18,596 bases of DNA from a bacterium. GTDB lineage: Bacteria > Blakebacterota > Blakebacteria > Blakebacterales > Blakebacteraceae. The translations under genes and the position numbers were made by a program. The DNA is taken from the NCBI GenBank assembly GCA_025774615.1, contig JALGVQ010000064.1:1-18596 (forward strand), written 5' to 3'. This document shows, piece after piece, positions 1 to 9,663 of this stretch (its first letter is position 1; every line of letters begins with the position of its first letter). The notes below the pieces were generated by a model. That model ran no database searches, was not told the DNA's origin, and worked only from the letters and a program-made list of their open reading frames with translations.

Positions 1-1
1 C

Positions 2-1063
2 AATCAGACCCGTCTCGATTATGCGCTCATGTCCGCGGCCTGGCGTTATTCGGGGCAGGGCGATCCATATGCATGGACAGGTGCGTCGGGTCGTATGGCA
101 GGGCCGGGACTGACCGGTGGTGGCGTGTGGGATCCGGGTGATCTCGATATGAACTGGGAGGACACCACAATCGCGGTCAAGCACGCCGCGCTCTTCTTCG
201 GAGCATCTCTGGCCGGTGTGGCCGAGGCCAATCCCCTCTGGATCTACGGCACCAGCTACTCACCTTCACGTGCTGACCGCCAACGCACCATCCCCGTCCA
301 CTATGAGGGGGAGCGGTTGGAACGCACCGCCGAAGCGTGGTATGTGCCTGAATCGATGAACCGCTTCATCTCTCTGGCCTTTGAAGAGGATTTCTGGGCC
401 ATCGCCAATTCCCCGGGGCGCCTCGCCTCCGCTGCCACGGGAAACGGCTACTCCCGTATGGCGATCACTGCTTCCACGCTCGCCGAGTTCATCCGGAGTC
501 TTGGTTACCGGGCGATCCCCGCCGGGAACGGATTCGGTCTGAGCATCCCCATCGCGGTGGATGCCGGCCTCGGTGAGGTGGGCAGGCTCGGTCTCCTGGT
601 CACACCCCGCTACGGTCCGCGGGTTCGGCTGGCGAAGGTGCTGACCGACATGCCGCTCGTGCCTGACACCCCGATCAGCTTCGGTGTTACCGAATTCTGT
701 GAGAAGTGCATGTTGTGCGCCGATCAGTGTCCGAGTGGAGCGATAACCGAAGGAACCCGTACCTGGGAGGGTACTTCCCGGTCCAACAGCGCGGGGACCC
801 TCAAGTGGTATGTGGATGGGGCGAAGTGTAATGACTTCAACGGCTTCAGTTGCTCCAACTGCAAGCGGTGCTGCCCCTTCAACAAGCCGAATAATTCATG
901 GCTCCACCGGCTGACCCGCTCGGTCGTCAAGGGCCGCATCAAGCCGCTCGACAACATGATGGTCACCCTCGATCAGGGGAGCGGCTACGGTCGACAGGTC
1001 GAGGACACCGATTTCTGGAAAATGGATGGCAGCGCGAGCATCACCGCTCGTGAGAAGATGTGA
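2..1063 (+). CDS. rdhA: Reductive dehalogenase catalytic subunit, 5'-truncated by window edge
   Basis: The reading frame is open to the left edge, so the ATG at 29 is probably internal and the true start, with any Tat signal, lies outside the window. The protein carries the C-terminal half of the RdhA fold. It shows a GLGEVGR-type segment typical of the corrinoid-binding domain, then a first 4Fe-4S motif CEKCMLCADQCP (codons from about 698), then a second cluster CNDFNGFSCSNCKRCCP near 830-880. RdhA proteins are corrinoid/Fe-S enzymes that reductively remove halogens, usually on the outer face of the cytoplasmic membrane. The stop is followed by 92 bases without a gene before the second rdhA. 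The family assignment is firm. The substrate is unknown, and many environmental RdhA homologues have no proven dehalogenating activity. Confidence 0.88.
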   Translation, partial: NQTRLDYALMSAAWRYSGQGDPYAWTGASGRMAGPGLTGGGVWDPGDLDMNWEDTTIAVKHAALFFGASLAGVAEANPLWIYGTSYSPSRADRQRTIPVHYEGERLERTAEAWYVPESMNRFISLAFEEDFWAIANSPGRLASAATGNGYSRMAITASTLAEFIRSLGYRAIPAGNGFGLSIPIAVDAGLGEVGRLGLLVTPRYGPRVRLAKVLTDMPLVPDTPISFGVTEFCEKCMLCADQCPSGAITEGTRTWEGTSRSNSAGTLKWYVDGAKCNDFNGFSCSNCKRCCPFNKPNNSWLHRLTRSVVKGRIKPLDNMMVTLDQGSGYGRQVEDTDFWKMDGSASITAREKM

Positions 1064-1155
1064 TCTCTGGATCATCACGTGGGACTCCCGAGAGAGTGGG
1101 TGTCGAATGGTGAACAAGGACAACCGCTCAGGGATCGATTGAAGGGAATATCTCA

Positions 1156-2715
1156 ATGAGTGATTCGAAACCGGCGTTCAATGTGGACCGGAGGAAGTTC
1201 CTCAAGGTGGGCGGCGCGACCGGCGCTGCTGTTGGAGGGCTCGGGATGGGGCTGTTCGGCTACGCGGCCGGAAAGGACCCGAATTCCTACCTCGGCTGGC
1301 AGACCTACGAGGGAGTGAACCAGTTCTTCAACCGGAAAAGATATGAGGTCGATAAGCCGACCTATATCAGTTCGGGTACACCACGCCGGGTCGACCCGAG
1401 GGTCGACCAGATATTCGAGCGCCGGGGCCGGTTCATGATGCAGTATATGAGAGGACGTCAACAGGGATTGAGTGGGCCTGACATGTTCGAGGAACCCCTC
1501 CGCTCGTACTACCGGGAGAATCCCGAGGTGCTCGAACTCGACATCCTGAATGTTGAAGAGATCCAGCCGAAGCAACGGGTCGATTCCCGGATCTACGGGC
1601 AACAGTTCCTGCTGGCCGAAGCGTGGGCCAACGCGATGGGCGCGGTCGGACCGCGTGGGCCACAGGGCCCGCCGGCAGAGAATGACTTCCCTCGTCAGCG
1701 CCGGATGATGGGCAGTCGGATGCCTGGGGGAGATCAGCCACAGGGAGATATGCCGACGCCTCCCACCGTACGGAACGAGAGCGGTCAGGTAGATCTGAAA
1801 GATCCGGTTCAGACCGCGAGACTGATCAAGAAGATCGCTCACGAACTCGGTTCGACCCTTGTCGGCATCACGAAGCTGAATCCCGACTGGGTCTACGGCT
1901 ATCCGATCCGTGGCAGGGGCTTCGAGAATCTCGATGAACCGCTCGAGATCCCCGAGCACTGGGAATACGCGATCGTGGTCGGTACGCCGATGTCGTGGGA
2001 TCCGATGTATGCCAATCCCACCTACGGCACTTCGAGCGATGCCTATTCCCGCAGCAGGATCGTCGCTGCGAGGCTGGAAGCCTTCATCAAGACACTCGGT
2101 TTCCCTGCCCGGACCCATGTGCCGGGGACCAGCTATGATCTGATGGTCCCGCCGATTGCGATCGATGCCGGACTGGGGGAACAGGGGCGCCACTCGGTCA
2201 TGATCACGCCGGAACTGGGGAGCAATATCCGGCCTGCGGTGATCACCACGAATATTCCGATGGCGGTTGATAAACCGATCGATTTCGGCGTGCAGGACTT
2301 CTGCAAGCACTGCAAGGTGTGCGCTGAGAACTGCCCGAGTGGAGCGATCCCGATGGGGGATAAGGTGGAGATCAACGGTTACCTGCGCTACGAACTCAAT
2401 CAGGAGAAATGCCAGAACTTCTGGAATTCGTGCCTCGGAAGCATGGGGTGCCGGATCTGCATAGCGTGTTGTCCCTACACGCGCAAGGCGAACTGGCTGC
2501 ATCGGACTGCCCTCAATGTTACCGCGAACGACCCCACGAATATCTCCGACAAGGTACTGACAAGCCTCCAGAAGAGCTTCTACCCGGGACCCGATCCGCT
2601 GGAGTATTTCATGCCTTCGATGGGGGGCAGTAACGCTTCCTACCGCGAACCTCCGTGGTGGCTCAAAGCCGAGGACTTCATACACTTCACCCCGGGGACG
2701 GGGGTGGGGCCATGA
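1156..2715 (+). CDS. rdhA: Reductive dehalogenase with Tat signal
   Basis: This is a complete 519-residue RdhA. The start at 1156 follows a GAAGGGA ribosome-binding site. Residues 11-17 (DRRKFLK) plus the hydrophobic stretch to about 38 form a twin-arginine signal, so the folded cofactor-loaded enzyme is exported. Residues about 161-203 are an unusual linker rich in Gly, Pro, Met and Gln. The corrinoid domain follows and ends in a GLGEQGR segment. Cluster 1 is Cys383, 386, 389 and 393 followed by PSGAI. Cluster 2 draws on Cys419, 426, 432, 435, 438 and 439 in a looser arrangement than the first. It is a diverged paralogue of the preceding rdhA, not a recent duplicate. The last bases overlap rdhB (ATGA), which implies translational coupling. 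Expected role: terminal reductase receiving electrons through the RdhB/RdhC membrane proteins. The substrate cannot be read from the sequence. Confidence 0.92.
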   Translation: MSDSKPAFNVDRRKFLKVGGATGAAVGGLGMGLFGYAAGKDPNSYLGWQTYEGVNQFFNRKRYEVDKPTYISSGTPRRVDPRVDQIFERRGRFMMQYMRGRQQGLSGPDMFEEPLRSYYRENPEVLELDILNVEEIQPKQRVDSRIYGQQFLLAEAWANAMGAVGPRGPQGPPAENDFPRQRRMMGSRMPGGDQPQGDMPTPPTVRNESGQVDLKDPVQTARLIKKIAHELGSTLVGITKLNPDWVYGYPIRGRGFENLDEPLEIPEHWEYAIVVGTPMSWDPMYANPTYGTSSDAYSRSRIVAARLEAFIKTLGFPARTHVPGTSYDLMVPPIAIDAGLGEQGRHSVMITPELGSNIRPAVITTNIPMAVDKPIDFGVQDFCKHCKVCAENCPSGAIPMGDKVEINGYLRYELNQEKCQNFWNSCLGSMGCRICIACCPYTRKANWLHRTALNVTANDPTNISDKVLTSLQKSFYPGPDPLEYFMPSMGGSNASYREPPWWLKAEDFIHFTPGTGVGP

Positions 2716-3038
2716 GTTTCTTCATGAGCGGTTTCTTCTGGTTCCTCGAGGGCGCACTCTTCTGCATATTCATCCTTGCCGTCAGGGCATGGGCCGAGGA
2801 TCGATCGATCCCCATGCCGTACTGGAAGTGGATCTCTCTGATCGTGTGGGTCTTCTTTGTCGGGTTCACACTCGCGTTCATCGGCACCAGTTTCGGTGAA
2901 GGCGAACCGGCAGCGGCCATCAGGGGAGGGATCCTCTTCGGAGTGATCGCCATTATCTCCGGCGTCGGATTGTGGCGACTGTTGAAGATCGGAAACATCC
3001 CGGGTGAAGAAGAGTTTGCGACAGCGACCGAAGAGTAA
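2712..3038 (+). CDS. rdhB: Reductive dehalogenase membrane anchor RdhB
   Basis: This 108-residue protein has three predicted membrane helices, roughly residues 5-24, 38-58 and 71-90. That is the usual size and topology of RdhB/PceB anchors. I chose the ATG at 2712 because it overlaps the rdhA stop as ATGA. An in-frame codon further upstream at 2655 would add a stretch buried inside rdhA and is not credible. RdhB proteins are thought to tether the exported RdhA to the membrane. The assignment rests on size, helix pattern and position directly after rdhA, because this family is poorly conserved. The 3' end overlaps the start of rdhC by about 35 bases. Confidence 0.8.
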   Translation: MSFFMSGFFWFLEGALFCIFILAVRAWAEDRSIPMPYWKWISLIVWVFFVGFTLAFIGTSFGEGEPAAAIRGGILFGVIAIISGVGLWRLLKIGNIPGEEEFATATEE

Positions 3039-4176
3039 CCTTCTCCTCTACCTGTTTGTCATAACCGCTCTCGTCCTGTCTGCCTGGTACGGCAGGACGA
3101 GAAGTGGTCCCGATATCTGGCCTCATCTCCAGAAGATCTTTCCGGAAGCCGCCTCCTTCAGCGTGTCGGATGGTGTGTTTGTCGTGCAGGATGAGAGGGG
3201 AGGTCTGCTCGGATGGGCCGCGAACGGGAGCGCAAATGGTTACGCCGGGCCGCTTCAACTCCTGGTAGGGATCGACTCCACCGGGACCGTTTCCGGAACG
3301 AGTGTCATCGAGCACCGGGAGACTCCGGTGTTCTGGCGGATGGTCAGATTTCCCGTATTCTTCTCCGAGATCGCCGGTAGTTCCTTTGAAGAGATCAACT
3401 ACCGTTATGAGGAGGTGGTAGGGGTCACGGGAGCTACGCGCTCATCGGACGCCATTGTAGCGAGTGTCCGGAAGGCGGTGGCGAGAGTGGCCGGCGAGCA
3501 GTTCGATGTGACGATCCCGCTCCCTCTTCCTCCCTGGGAATTCGGATTCTTCGAGATCGCGATCATGGTGCTCCTGGCCGGGGCTGTCGCGTCACTCTAT
3601 CTGCGACGGCCGGTGCAGAAGGCCTGGCGCTGGGCCTCGCAGGCGTTTGCTCTCATCGTGGTGGGATTCTGGGAGAATTCACCGATCACCCTGACCAAAC
3701 TCACCGGATTCCTGGCCGGCTACTTTCCGGAGATACGCGCCAATCTGGCGATCTACCTGCTGGTGGTCGGATTCGTACTGACCGTACTCCTGTTCGGCCG
3801 GAGCCTCTATTGTTCCCACCTCTGTCCGTTCGGGGCGATCCAGCGGTTCATCAACCTCATCGGCGGAAAACGGATCAGGCTCCCGGTATGGTCACTGAAC
3901 CTGATGCCGAGAATGCGCGATCTCATCGTCTTCTGTGCGGTCGTGACAGCGCTCGCCATCGCTCAGCCGGGTCTGGCGCACTATGAGCCTTTCGCGGCGC
4001 TCTTCGCACTCAAGGGAGGCATGCTCCAGTGGTTCCTCCTCCTGATCGTGCTCCTCCTCTCACTGGTCCTCGATCGACCATGGTGCCACTACATGTGCCC
4101 GATGAGGACGGGGGAGCGGGTCCTGCAGGATATCAGGGGCACGATCACCGGACCGAAAGGGGAACAGCATGCGTAG
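3004..4176 (+). CDS. rdhC: NosR/RdhC-like FMN-binding membrane protein
   Basis: This 390-residue protein begins with a membrane helix (about 13-29). A periplasmic FMN-binding domain follows and contains VTGATRSS, where Thr145 is the expected site of covalent flavin attachment by an ApbE-type transferase. Several helices lie between about 180 and 360. Two CxxxCP motifs, CSHLCP (Cys270, 274) and CHYMCP (Cys361, 365), match those of PceC/RdhC and NosR. Unlike NosR, it has no C-terminal ferredoxin domain, so its length and layout fit RdhC. Likely role: moving electrons from the quinone pool across the membrane to exported RdhA, or acting in its maturation. The annotated start is GTG at 3004, inside rdhB. 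A TTG at 3016, preceded by a purine-rich AAGAAGAG, is an alternative. Confidence 0.85.
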   Translation: MKKSLRQRPKSNLLLYLFVITALVLSAWYGRTRSGPDIWPHLQKIFPEAASFSVSDGVFVVQDERGGLLGWAANGSANGYAGPLQLLVGIDSTGTVSGTSVIEHRETPVFWRMVRFPVFFSEIAGSSFEEINYRYEEVVGVTGATRSSDAIVASVRKAVARVAGEQFDVTIPLPLPPWEFGFFEIAIMVLLAGAVASLYLRRPVQKAWRWASQAFALIVVGFWENSPITLTKLTGFLAGYFPEIRANLAIYLLVVGFVLTVLLFGRSLYCSHLCPFGAIQRFINLIGGKRIRLPVWSLNLMPRMRDLIVFCAVVTALAIAQPGLAHYEPFAALFALKGGMLQWFLLLIVLLLSLVLDRPWCHYMCPMRTGERVLQDIRGTITGPKGEQHA

Positions 4177-4324
4177 CGGGAGTGGTCTGGAGAGTGGAGA
4201 CGGAATGGAACAGGGTGGCCGGAGGAAGGTGACTCTCCGCGACATGGTGGTCGCGTTCTTCATCCTGCTCACCACTGGTCTGATTGTCGGTATACTGCTG
4301 CAGGGGTTTCTGACAGGACATTAG
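4169..4324 (+). CDS. Small single-helix membrane protein of the rdh operon
   Basis: A 51-codon frame starts with the ATG at 4169, overlapping the end of rdhC by 8 bases, and stops with TAG at 4322-4324. The purine-rich GAAAGGGGAA just upstream, inside rdhC, can serve as ribosome-binding site. The N-terminal half is polar and Gly/Arg-rich. Residues about 26-48 form one strongly hydrophobic helix (MVVAFFILLTTGLIVGILLQ). It has no Cys and no recognisable domain. The overlap with rdhC, the clean helix and the immediate AT-rich spacer beyond its stop argue that it is the real last gene of the operon. A role as a small subunit or assembly factor of the RdhB/RdhC membrane complex is inference only. 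Confidence 0.6.
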   Translation: MRSGSGLESGDGMEQGGRRKVTLRDMVVAFFILLTTGLIVGILLQGFLTGH

Positions 4325-4378: not shown

Positions 4379-5041
4379 CTATAGCGTTGCTGTTTGTCGG
4401 GTCTGATCGGCGACCCAGTCGACCCATGCCCCGATACCTTCACCTGTCTGACAGGAGAGGGGGAATGTCACGACTCCCCTGTTCAGTGCTTCCACACCTT
4501 CTCTGAAACGATCCATATCGAATATCACGTAGGGTAGAAGGTCGATCTTGTTGATCACCAGCACATCCACCCCACGGTACATGGCAGGGTACTTGAACGG
4601 CTTGTCATCTCCTTCAGGTACCGAAGCGATGAGGACCCGCAGATGAGTCCCCAGGTCCCAGCTGGCCGGACAGACCAGGTTCCCTACATTTTCGACGATG
4701 ATGATGTCAAGCGACGGGAGGTCGAGCTGGTCGAGTCCCTGACTGACCATAGGAGCGTCGAGGTGGCAGGAAGCGGCATTGATCTGAACGCTCGTTGCTC
4801 CGGCTGCTTCGGTTCTGTCGGCGTCGAGAGAGGTGGCGATATCACCCTCGATGACACCCAGACGGAAACGGTCGGCCAGCAGGGGGATGCTCTTCTCGAT
4901 CAGTGATGTCTTCCCTGCGCCGGGTGAGGCCATCAGGTTGAGCGAGAAAATGTCGTGTTCATCGAATCGCGTCCGGTTCATGGCTGCGATCTGATCGTTC
5001 GCCTTGGTGATCTTCTCGACAACAGGAATGGTTTTCCCCAT
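4379..5041 (-). CDS. hypB: Hydrogenase nickel-incorporation GTPase HypB
   Basis: This 220-residue SIMIBI GTPase supplies energy for inserting nickel into [NiFe] hydrogenase large subunits. The P-loop is GAGKTS at 41-46. The metal-site motif CHLDA gives Cys92 and His93, and ENVGNLVCP gives Cys124. NKIDL at 164-168 provides guanine specificity. All G-domain metal ligands of the family are present. The N-terminal CxxCGC motif of E. coli HypB and the His-rich stretch of other HypB proteins are both absent. The start at 5041 is supported by GGAAGGAT seven bases upstream, which lies inside the end of hypA. Only 6 bases separate the two genes. The remaining hyp genes and any [NiFe] hydrogenase must lie elsewhere. 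Confidence 0.95.
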   Translation of the reverse strand: MGKTIPVVEKITKANDQIAAMNRTRFDEHDIFSLNLMASPGAGKTSLIEKSIPLLADRFRLGVIEGDIATSLDADRTEAAGATSVQINAASCHLDAPMVSQGLDQLDLPSLDIIIVENVGNLVCPASWDLGTHLRVLIASVPEGDDKPFKYPAMYRGVDVLVINKIDLLPYVIFDMDRFREGVEALNRGVVTFPLSCQTGEGIGAWVDWVADQTRQTATL

Positions 5042-5047
5042 GGTTCG

Positions 5048-5416
5048 CTATCCTTCCGACATGGTCGAGTCGTCCTGTTCAAGATCGATCGACACCAGAT
5101 GGAACTGTTCGCCGTCAACCACCTGCACCTCTGTCGAGGAACAGGCTGTGCAGGCATAATCATCACCTTCAGGATTGAAGACCGCGCCGCATCCCAGGCA
5201 TTCCATCTCCAGCTCGATATGCTTGAAGTGGAGCAGGGCGCCTTCAGCCGGAGTGCCTTCGGTCACGATATCCCAGTAGAACTGCACAAACCGGTTAATA
5301 ACCCCTGACAATCGACCCACCTCGAGATGGAGGTCGGTGATCCGGCCTCCGCCGGCTGCTTCAGCATGGCGGATCGCAAGGTCGAGCAGGCTCCTGGTGA
5401 TGGGGAGTTCATGCAT
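5048..5416 (-). CDS. hypA: Hydrogenase nickel metallochaperone HypA
   Basis: This 122-residue HypA binds nickel through its N-terminal MHE and a structural zinc through two CxxC pairs, here Cys73/76 (CLGC) and Cys89/92 (CTAC). I chose the ATG at 5416 and not the in-frame ATG at 5422, because the family needs Met-His-Glu at the extreme N-terminus. The longer version would add Met-Pro and bury His2. No Shine-Dalgarno sequence precedes either codon, and a TATAAT lies immediately upstream, so the transcript may be leaderless. HypA works with HypB, encoded 6 bases downstream, to deliver nickel to hydrogenase precursors in the cytoplasm. The C-terminus has an acidic tail rich in Asp and Glu. Confidence 0.93.
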   Translation of the reverse strand: MHELPITRSLLDLAIRHAEAAGGGRITDLHLEVGRLSGVINRFVQFYWDIVTEGTPAEGALLHFKHIELEMECLGCGAVFNPEGDDYACTACSSTEVQVVDGEQFHLVSIDLEQDDSTMSEG

Positions 5417-5423
5417 GGGCATA

Positions 5424-8709: not shown

Positions 8710-9663
8710 ATGAATGCATTCGTGACCAGGATACAGGAAGAATGTGACCTGGAGTTGACAGCAGGTCGGATGGACACCCTGCAGGTCAACATCGGCCTGA
8801 AGTGCAACATGAGCTGTATCCATTGCCATCTTGCCTGCGGTCCCGACCGTGAGGAAGAGATGGTGTGGGATACGATGCTGGCGGTCGTTGACGCAGCGAA
8901 CCTCATCCATCCCGATCTGGTCGACATCACCGGCGGCGCTCCGGAGATCAATCCGCATTTCAGGGCATTCATTGCCGAGTTAAGACGGCATGGGCACGCG
9001 GTTCAGGTAAGAACGAACCTTACTGCCATGTTGGATATGGGGCTGGACGAGACAACAGCATTCCTGAGAGACCATCAGGTGCATCTGGTGGCATCCATGC
9101 CCTGCTATCTGGAGGAGAACGTCTGCCGCCAGAGAGGGAAGGGAACCTACGAGAAGAGTGTGGAAGTACTGCAGAAACTCAATTCTCTGGGGTATGGCAT
9201 AGACCCTGAGTTGTCACTGAGTCTGGTTTTCAACCCCGGCGGACCTTTCCTGCCGCCTGACCAGGTACAACTCGAAGTGGATTACAGAAGAGAGTTGAAG
9301 GAGAGATTCGGTATCGATTTCACGAAGCTGTACACTATCACGAATATGCCGATAGGTCGTTTCTGGCGGGACCTCGATCGCGACGAGAAGGCCGACGAAT
9401 ACATGAAGCTTCTCGTGGATGGATTCAATTGTCACACGGTGGACGGCCTGATGTGCCGCCACCAGATCAGTATTGGCTGGGATGGAACTATCTACGACTG
9501 CGATTTCAACTTGGCCCTGGGCCTTCCGGTCGGAGATGAAGACACAGACTCGATTCTGGATTTCAAACCGGCATTACTGGAAGGCCGCGCGATAGCGAGC
9601 GGCATGCACTGCTTCGGATGTACCGCAGGGTCGGGATCTTCCTGCGCTGGAGCCCTCCTCTGA
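8710..9663 (+). CDS. arsS: Arsenosugar biosynthesis radical SAM protein ArsS
   Basis: This 317-residue radical SAM enzyme has the family opening TLQVNIGLKCN. The cluster-binding motif CxxxCxxC is Cys32, 36 and 39. Near the C-terminus it has the characteristic CFGCTAGSGSSCAGALL segment of the radical SAM/Cys-rich family. ArsS is credited with transferring the deoxyadenosyl group to dimethylated arsenic on the way to arsenosugars. The ATG at 8710 has AGGA four bases upstream. It is the first gene of a run of five co-directional genes. The partner methyltransferase ArsM, which normally makes the dimethylarsenic substrate, is not in this window. Confidence 0.88.
   Translation: MNAFVTRIQEECDLELTAGRMDTLQVNIGLKCNMSCIHCHLACGPDREEEMVWDTMLAVVDAANLIHPDLVDITGGAPEINPHFRAFIAELRRHGHAVQVRTNLTAMLDMGLDETTAFLRDHQVHLVASMPCYLEENVCRQRGKGTYEKSVEVLQKLNSLGYGIDPELSLSLVFNPGGPFLPPDQVQLEVDYRRELKERFGIDFTKLYTITNMPIGRFWRDLDRDEKADEYMKLLVDGFNCHTVDGLMCRHQISIGWDGTIYDCDFNLALGLPVGDEDTDSILDFKPALLEGRAIASGMHCFGCTAGSGSSCAGALL

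Follow-up and report, generated by a model that had tools for sequence, protein, structure and literature searches.

The menaquinol:organohalide oxidoreductase of Desulfitobacterium hafniense (PDB 8q4h) is a PceA2B2 complex in which menaquinone lies between PceA (residues K489, H495, R499, D515 and Y520) and helices 2 and 3 of the membrane anchor PceB, with E61 and E63 of PceB in the loop joining those helices (PMC10624902). The roles of the active-site Tyr and Arg in dehalogenation are reviewed in the same work. The membrane flavoprotein RdhC (PceC) carries an FMN_bind domain, binding flavin mononucleotide (FMN), with the signature [S/T]G[A/S]TX[S/T] and two CX3CP motifs (PMC5928378). The function of RdhC is unsettled even in known systems. 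Compared here with these systems is the reductive dehalogenase (rdh) operon at the start of contig JALGVQ010000064.1 (assembly GCA_025774615.1), from a bacterium of the Blakebacteraceae. The window, that is, the whole stretch of DNA analysed, is the entire contig of 18,596 bases and belongs to a metagenome-assembled genome (MAG) of 3.3 Mb that is 82% complete. Its home phylum is represented by four genomes, this MAG and G001, G002 and G003, at 63-85% completeness.

The operon is probably a composite in which two distinct corrinoid/[4Fe-4S] dehalogenases, both exported by the twin-arginine translocation (Tat) pathway and anchored in the membrane, stand under one RdhC. RdhA1-RdhB1 would be a quinol:organohalide oxidoreductase of the PceA type and RdhA2-RdhB2 a system from another clade. 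A first-pass annotation had described the rdh set as complete, which it is not in the window, because the contig begins inside rdhA1. Fragments of G001, G002 and G003 contain this operon too, and in them rdhB1, another three-helix gene, lies upstream of an rdhA1 whose product opens with a Tat signal (DRRNF). The full operon order is rdhB1-rdhA1-rdhA2-rdhB2-rdhC-orf51. The arrangement differs from D. hafniense PceA/PceB in having two catalytic subunits and, counting the missing start, two anchors.

Sequence features and phylogeny of the two RdhA proteins

Proteins were called RdhA at the curated TIGR02486 cut-off of 160 bits, which both window proteins exceed (Table 1), and QueG at the equivalog cut-off of 200 bits of TIGR00276, far above their scores of 44 and 60 bits. 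TIGR02486 was the suitable model; the Pfam Dehalogenase model PF13486 gave no match in the window's own genome. Active-site positions were numbered on PceA of Sulfurospirillum multivorans and menaquinone-pocket residues on D. hafniense PceA, and 9 RdhA1 and 24 RdhA2 sequences were compared.

The best PDB match of RdhA1 was S. multivorans PceA (4uqu; E = 3.9e-61, 39% identity). RdhA1 keeps the equivalents of Y246, N272 and R305, the Tyr and Arg being present in 9/9 sequences. All eight cysteines of the two Fe-S cluster motifs are kept in every RdhA1, as are, in all nine, the five menaquinone-pocket residues of D. hafniense PceA. RdhA1 differs from the S. multivorans enzyme in a second-cluster loop about three residues shorter, from which the residue aligned to W376 is lost, and is 40% identical to D. 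hafniense PceA over 278 aligned columns. Judged from its sequence, RdhA1 has every anatomical feature examined for an exported respiratory RdhA, the Tat signal and RdhB1 being seen in relatives only, and is most likely the respiratory enzyme of the pair.

In a 71-sequence tree, RdhA1 clustered with PceA of Desulfitobacterium, PceA of Sulfurospirillum and one Dehalococcoides enzyme (support 91), and RdhA2 formed a clade of its own (support 99). The characterised enzymes in this tree comprise three PDB proteins, as partial sequences extracted from HMMER alignments, and five plasmid-borne sequences only. The root is uncertain, since QueG sits on a long branch. The window RdhA2 was cut at 459 residues for the tree and used in full for the approximately unbiased (AU) tests. 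These rejected a sister relationship of RdhA1 and RdhA2 (p = 0.00025) and, with few characterised enzymes included, a placement of RdhA2 within the respiratory group (p = 0.0046). The two proteins, about 31% identical over 260 columns, are therefore not a duplicated pair, and their earlier description as paralogues is not upheld, although the presence of two different RdhA is. Tandem duplication of rdhA was ruled out by the AU test together with the separate distribution described below. That the two genes arose by local duplication and diverged toward different substrates, as their adjacency in one operon and common domain family might suggest, is scarcely credible: the sister grouping was rejected, each RdhA has its own RdhB type and each is found alone in other phyla.

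The AU test did not reject RdhA2 as sister of the NpRdhA/BhbA clade (p = 0.11), and its best PDB match was NpRdhA of Nitratireductor pacificus (4ras, 35% identity), with which it shares a short loop between the clusters. These points would favour a cluster of QueG-like or cytoplasmic catabolic reductases with no export. NpRdhA, however, is cytoplasmic and lacks both Tat signal and RdhB, whereas Tat signals were found in the RdhA1 and RdhA2 clades alike, rdhB2 accompanies rdhA2 at every locus and RdhC is present. The site of PceA R305 is Lys in all six catabolic-clade sequences (K488 in NpRdhA) and Arg in RdhA2, so that RdhA2 departs from the NpRdhA type in all three attributes (no Tat signal, no RdhB, Lys at K488). 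With the low QueG scores added, a cytoplasmic or QueG-like cluster is very unlikely. The phylogeny with respiratory enzymes proposed in the first-pass annotation did not place both RdhA in such a clade, and the catalytic Tyr was kept.

The equivalents of Tyr246 and Arg305 in RdhA2 (Y297 and R359) are invariant in 24/24 sequences, each of which retains the eight cluster cysteines, and a PMSWDPM region directly before the catalytic Tyr is likewise invariant. The second cluster had been called odd. Its four canonical cysteines are in place in the window protein (C-x12-CxxCxxxCP), with two extra cysteines that the closest relatives lack; the unusual loop belongs to RdhA1. The Gly/Pro/Met-rich linker, singled out earlier as a distinctive element, is missing in almost every one of the 24 orthologues and represents a variable, non-conserved insertion. 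The AlphaFold prediction for RdhA2 was of low confidence (mean predicted local distance difference test, pLDDT, 59); its Foldseek matches agree with RdhA, and it was not used for active-site geometry.

RdhB2, RdhC, orf51 and the gene order

The three-helix RdhB of the earlier description was recovered in an AlphaFold model (pLDDT 81) with helices at residues 7-30, 37-62 and 66-92. As in PceB, the glutamates of the GExE (EXE) motif lie in the loop between helices 2 and 3, and the motif is invariant (24/24). The RdhB2 profile matched one PDB sequence only, PceB (8q4h_C, E = 0.04), aligned through EXE, and the same chain was the best Foldseek match of the model (template modelling score 0.74 by target length, root-mean-square deviation 2.2). 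Each E-value is weak by itself; the sequence and fold lines agree, and the modelled RdhB2 appears to resemble PceB alone in the PDB.

RdhC bears out the motifs first noted (TGATRS for FMN; CSHLCP and CHYMCP as the two CX3CP) and, with its FMN_bind domain, matches the published signature. A hydropathy scan gave about five strong helices; the family definition has six. The window differs from the PceC/RdhC family in having a single RdhC for two catalytic subunits. Identity was 28-34% to RdhC of most other phyla and 47-49% to those of L026, a Longimicrobiales MAG, and of L028. In the RdhC tree the window sequence fell together with those of G002, G003, L026 and L028 and separately from the rest, with support too weak to name the source module of rdhC.

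The 51-codon, one-helix gene overlapping rdhC also held up. Homologues found in a search of related genomes overlap the rdhC end in G002 and G003, with weaker ones in L026 and L028, and share a comparable hydrophobic core with Q.FL at its end. Changes were most frequent at third codon positions (20/39, 18/32 and 11/20 differences in three comparisons), and nonsynonymous rates (dN, 0.15-0.39) were lower than synonymous rates (dS, 0.52-1.39), giving dN/dS of about 0.28-0.35. By these measures orf51 is a real, conserved gene for a predicted single-helix membrane protein. A small one-helix open reading frame (ORF), KVDFIIKAVIILFILLGALLAWAEL, also overlaps the rdhC end in the Phycisphaerae MAG L048 (L048 112-1368, minus strand, plus the bases just after) and may be a distant counterpart of orf51.

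The genes are closely packed, with an ATGA overlap at the rdhA2/rdhB2 junction, an rdhC start that overlaps rdhB2 by 35 bases and an orf51 that overlaps rdhC by 8 bases; from this position, orf51 would be translationally coupled to rdhC. A terminator scan 3' of the operon gave a signal at chance level.

Table 1. Coordinates of the rdh operon and the adjoining hyp genes in the window
Feature	Position	Strand	Basis
rdhA1, 3' part, 353 codons	2..1063	+	TIGR02486 210 bits; PceA 4uqu best PDB match; 5' end cut by contig start
rdhA2, 519 aa, Tat signal RRKFLK	1156..2715	+	TIGR02486 173 bits; 23 named orthologues; tree and AU test
Gly/Pro/Met-rich low-complexity insertion, RdhA2 residues 161-203	1636..1764	+	alignments; not conserved
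rdhB2, 108 aa, three-helix membrane anchor, GExE (EXE) motif E63/E65	2712..3038	+	profile and fold match PceB
rdhC, 390 aa, membrane flavoprotein	3004..4176	+	FMN_bind domain, TGATRS, two CX3CP
orf51, 51 codons, predicted small single-helix membrane protein	4169..4324	+	homologues after rdhC in relatives; dN/dS
hypB, nickel incorporation GTPase, convergent neighbour	4379..5041	-	TIGR00073 232 bits
hypA, nickel metallochaperone, convergent neighbour	5048..5422	-	TIGR00100 88.1 bits, at cut-off

Distribution of the modules and wider genome context

A contig scan with the RdhA2 alignment yielded 23 loci with orthologues 50-79% identical, in MAGs of Aminicenantes, Acidobacteriota, Latescibacterota, Zixibacteria, Gemmatimonadota (including Longimicrobiales), Phycisphaerae/Planctomycetota and Desulfobacterales; many of the isolate names suggest marine sediments. 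Two of the 23, L025 and L030, have contigs matching in length the operon fragments of G003 and G002. With the window included, rdhB2 lies directly 3' of rdhA2 in 24/24 loci. The gene rdhC follows in 14 of these (one partial) and is absent in 10, a patchy presence that fits the lack of RdhC in many organohalide respirers. No further neighbour family was widely common to the 24 loci.

Orthologues of RdhA1 were found in other hosts at four loci (L048, L051, L052 and L069; 54-71% identity), each with rdhB1 upstream, and rdhC follows rdhB1-rdhA1 in the first three. The rdhA2-rdhB2 module occurs without the rdhA1 module in about 20 loci, and the two are joined in the four home-phylum genomes and in L026, the one organism found outside the home phylum with the full joined order. 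Since both modules occur separately elsewhere, we infer that the home operon is a composite of the two. Sampling of 298 genomes from the phylum to which the Longimicrobiales MAG belongs gave RdhA1-like matches (E<=1e-30) in 44 (L079-L097); these proteins, of about 380-490 aa, mostly form a separate clade. Within the partial coverage of the literature, rdhA has been reported from MAGs of Aminicenantes, as have further RdhA clades of marine origin, and no account of the RdhA1-RdhA2 pair or the RdhA2 clade was found.

The MAG has two further RdhA. One, C234 (L022 1251-2495, minus strand), groups with NpRdhA and has no obvious Tat signal. The other, C309 (L023 2369-3577, minus strand), clusters with C236 of G002 and bears a single strong helix at its N-terminus, resembling the hybrid RdhA type that has transmembrane helices there (Atashgahi 2019, PMC6797604), from which the RdhA of the window differ in being Tat-exported with a separate RdhB.

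In two genera the rdh operon has hydrogenase maturation genes beside it: hypB and hypA in the window, hypE and hypD in G003 (L020 4036-5693, minus strand). The window pair probably lies outside the operon, and a hydrogenase link through these genes is unsupported, the NiFe hydrogenase large subunit PF00374 giving no match in any of the four incomplete home genomes. A gene for a CsgG-like outer-membrane lipoprotein lies 5' of rdhB1 in G001 and G002 (L017 955-1998; L019 2064-3158), with an extracytoplasmic function (ECF) sigma factor gene and a small ORF between it and rdhB1 in G001. Elsewhere in the window, a radical S-adenosylmethionine (SAM) gene (8710-9663, plus strand) matches the arsenosugar biosynthesis protein ArsS (TIGR04167, 397 bits).

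Functional interpretation

The genes present, their motifs, clade placement and conservation, together with the RdhB fold, would lead one to expect the following course of electron transfer, corrinoid binding and dehalogenation. RdhA1 and RdhA2 would be exported by Tat and anchored by RdhB on the periplasmic side; at the RdhA/RdhB interface, electrons drawn from the membrane pool would enter the two [4Fe-4S] clusters and go on to the corrinoid, which, once reduced, would cleave the carbon-halogen bond, with Tyr donating the proton and Arg assisting. RdhC may aid electron supply or maturation. For RdhA2, the same Tyr/Arg chemistry would be combined with an altered electron-entry site near the anchor, and the enzyme probably acts on another, rather constant substrate; different putative substrates for RdhA1 and RdhA2 are plausible. 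The earlier view of a respiratory or related exported system thus stands for the exported, anchored machinery (Tat, two RdhB, RdhC, intact Tyr and Arg) and for RdhA1, which groups with PceA, but not for RdhA2 as a member of the respiratory clade.

Several observations weigh against two PceA-like dehalogenases fed from a quinone pool. At the equivalent of Asn272, RdhA2 has Ser, Asp or Glu, in a local alignment that is less certain. In its menaquinone pocket the His is kept, Arg, Leu (mostly) and Gln replace K489, R499 and D515, and the Tyr is invariant but shifted by one in the alignment. By sequence, then, the catalytic part of RdhA2 is intact and its quinone part altered. In the four incomplete home genomes, no match was found to CobS or to MqnA/D, and MenD gave matches below the cut-off only; the negative hydrogenase search belongs here as well. 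COX1 likewise had no match in these genomes, among which NuoH is present. Controls for these searches were positive in known genomes. With neither CobS nor COX1 matched, the corrinoid is probably imported and oxygen respiration is unlikely.

The divergence of RdhA2 might alternatively mean that RdhA2-RdhB2 is a membrane-anchored corrinoid reductase for a non-organohalide, such as a compound with another leaving group or a natural metabolite, with RdhA1 the sole dehalogenase. Besides its exclusion from the respiratory clade and the loss of Asn272, RdhA2 varies unusually little (orthologues from several phyla are 58-82% identical to the window protein, with PMSWDPM invariant) and is the sole TIGR02486 protein above threshold in 9 of 21 host genomes searched. 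Its Tyr and Arg are nevertheless invariant, all clusters are present, the TIGR02486 cut-off is passed and Asn272 is replaced in some catabolic-clade enzymes as well; a non-organohalide substrate is considered unlikely. A more specific proposal, that RdhA2-RdhB2 is an uncharacterised cross-phylum, periplasm-facing corrinoid reductase family from anoxic marine sediments, having a single fixed natural substrate and an electron-entry site that would not employ menaquinone as PceAB does, merged here with a PceA-type module under one RdhC, is put forward tentatively as a possibility. The composite of two anchored dehalogenases remains the preferred reading.

The main gain is that the second enzyme belongs to a widespread marine-sediment RdhA-RdhB family instead of being the first one's sister paralogue. 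Marine sediments hold many dehalogenase-like genes with no assigned substrate, and RdhA2-RdhB2 offers a tangible candidate for a part in the natural halogen cycle of the seabed. With its altered quinone pocket, RdhA2 opens electron entry without the canonical site to testing, and the double operon allows a direct comparison of two RdhA lineages on one membrane.

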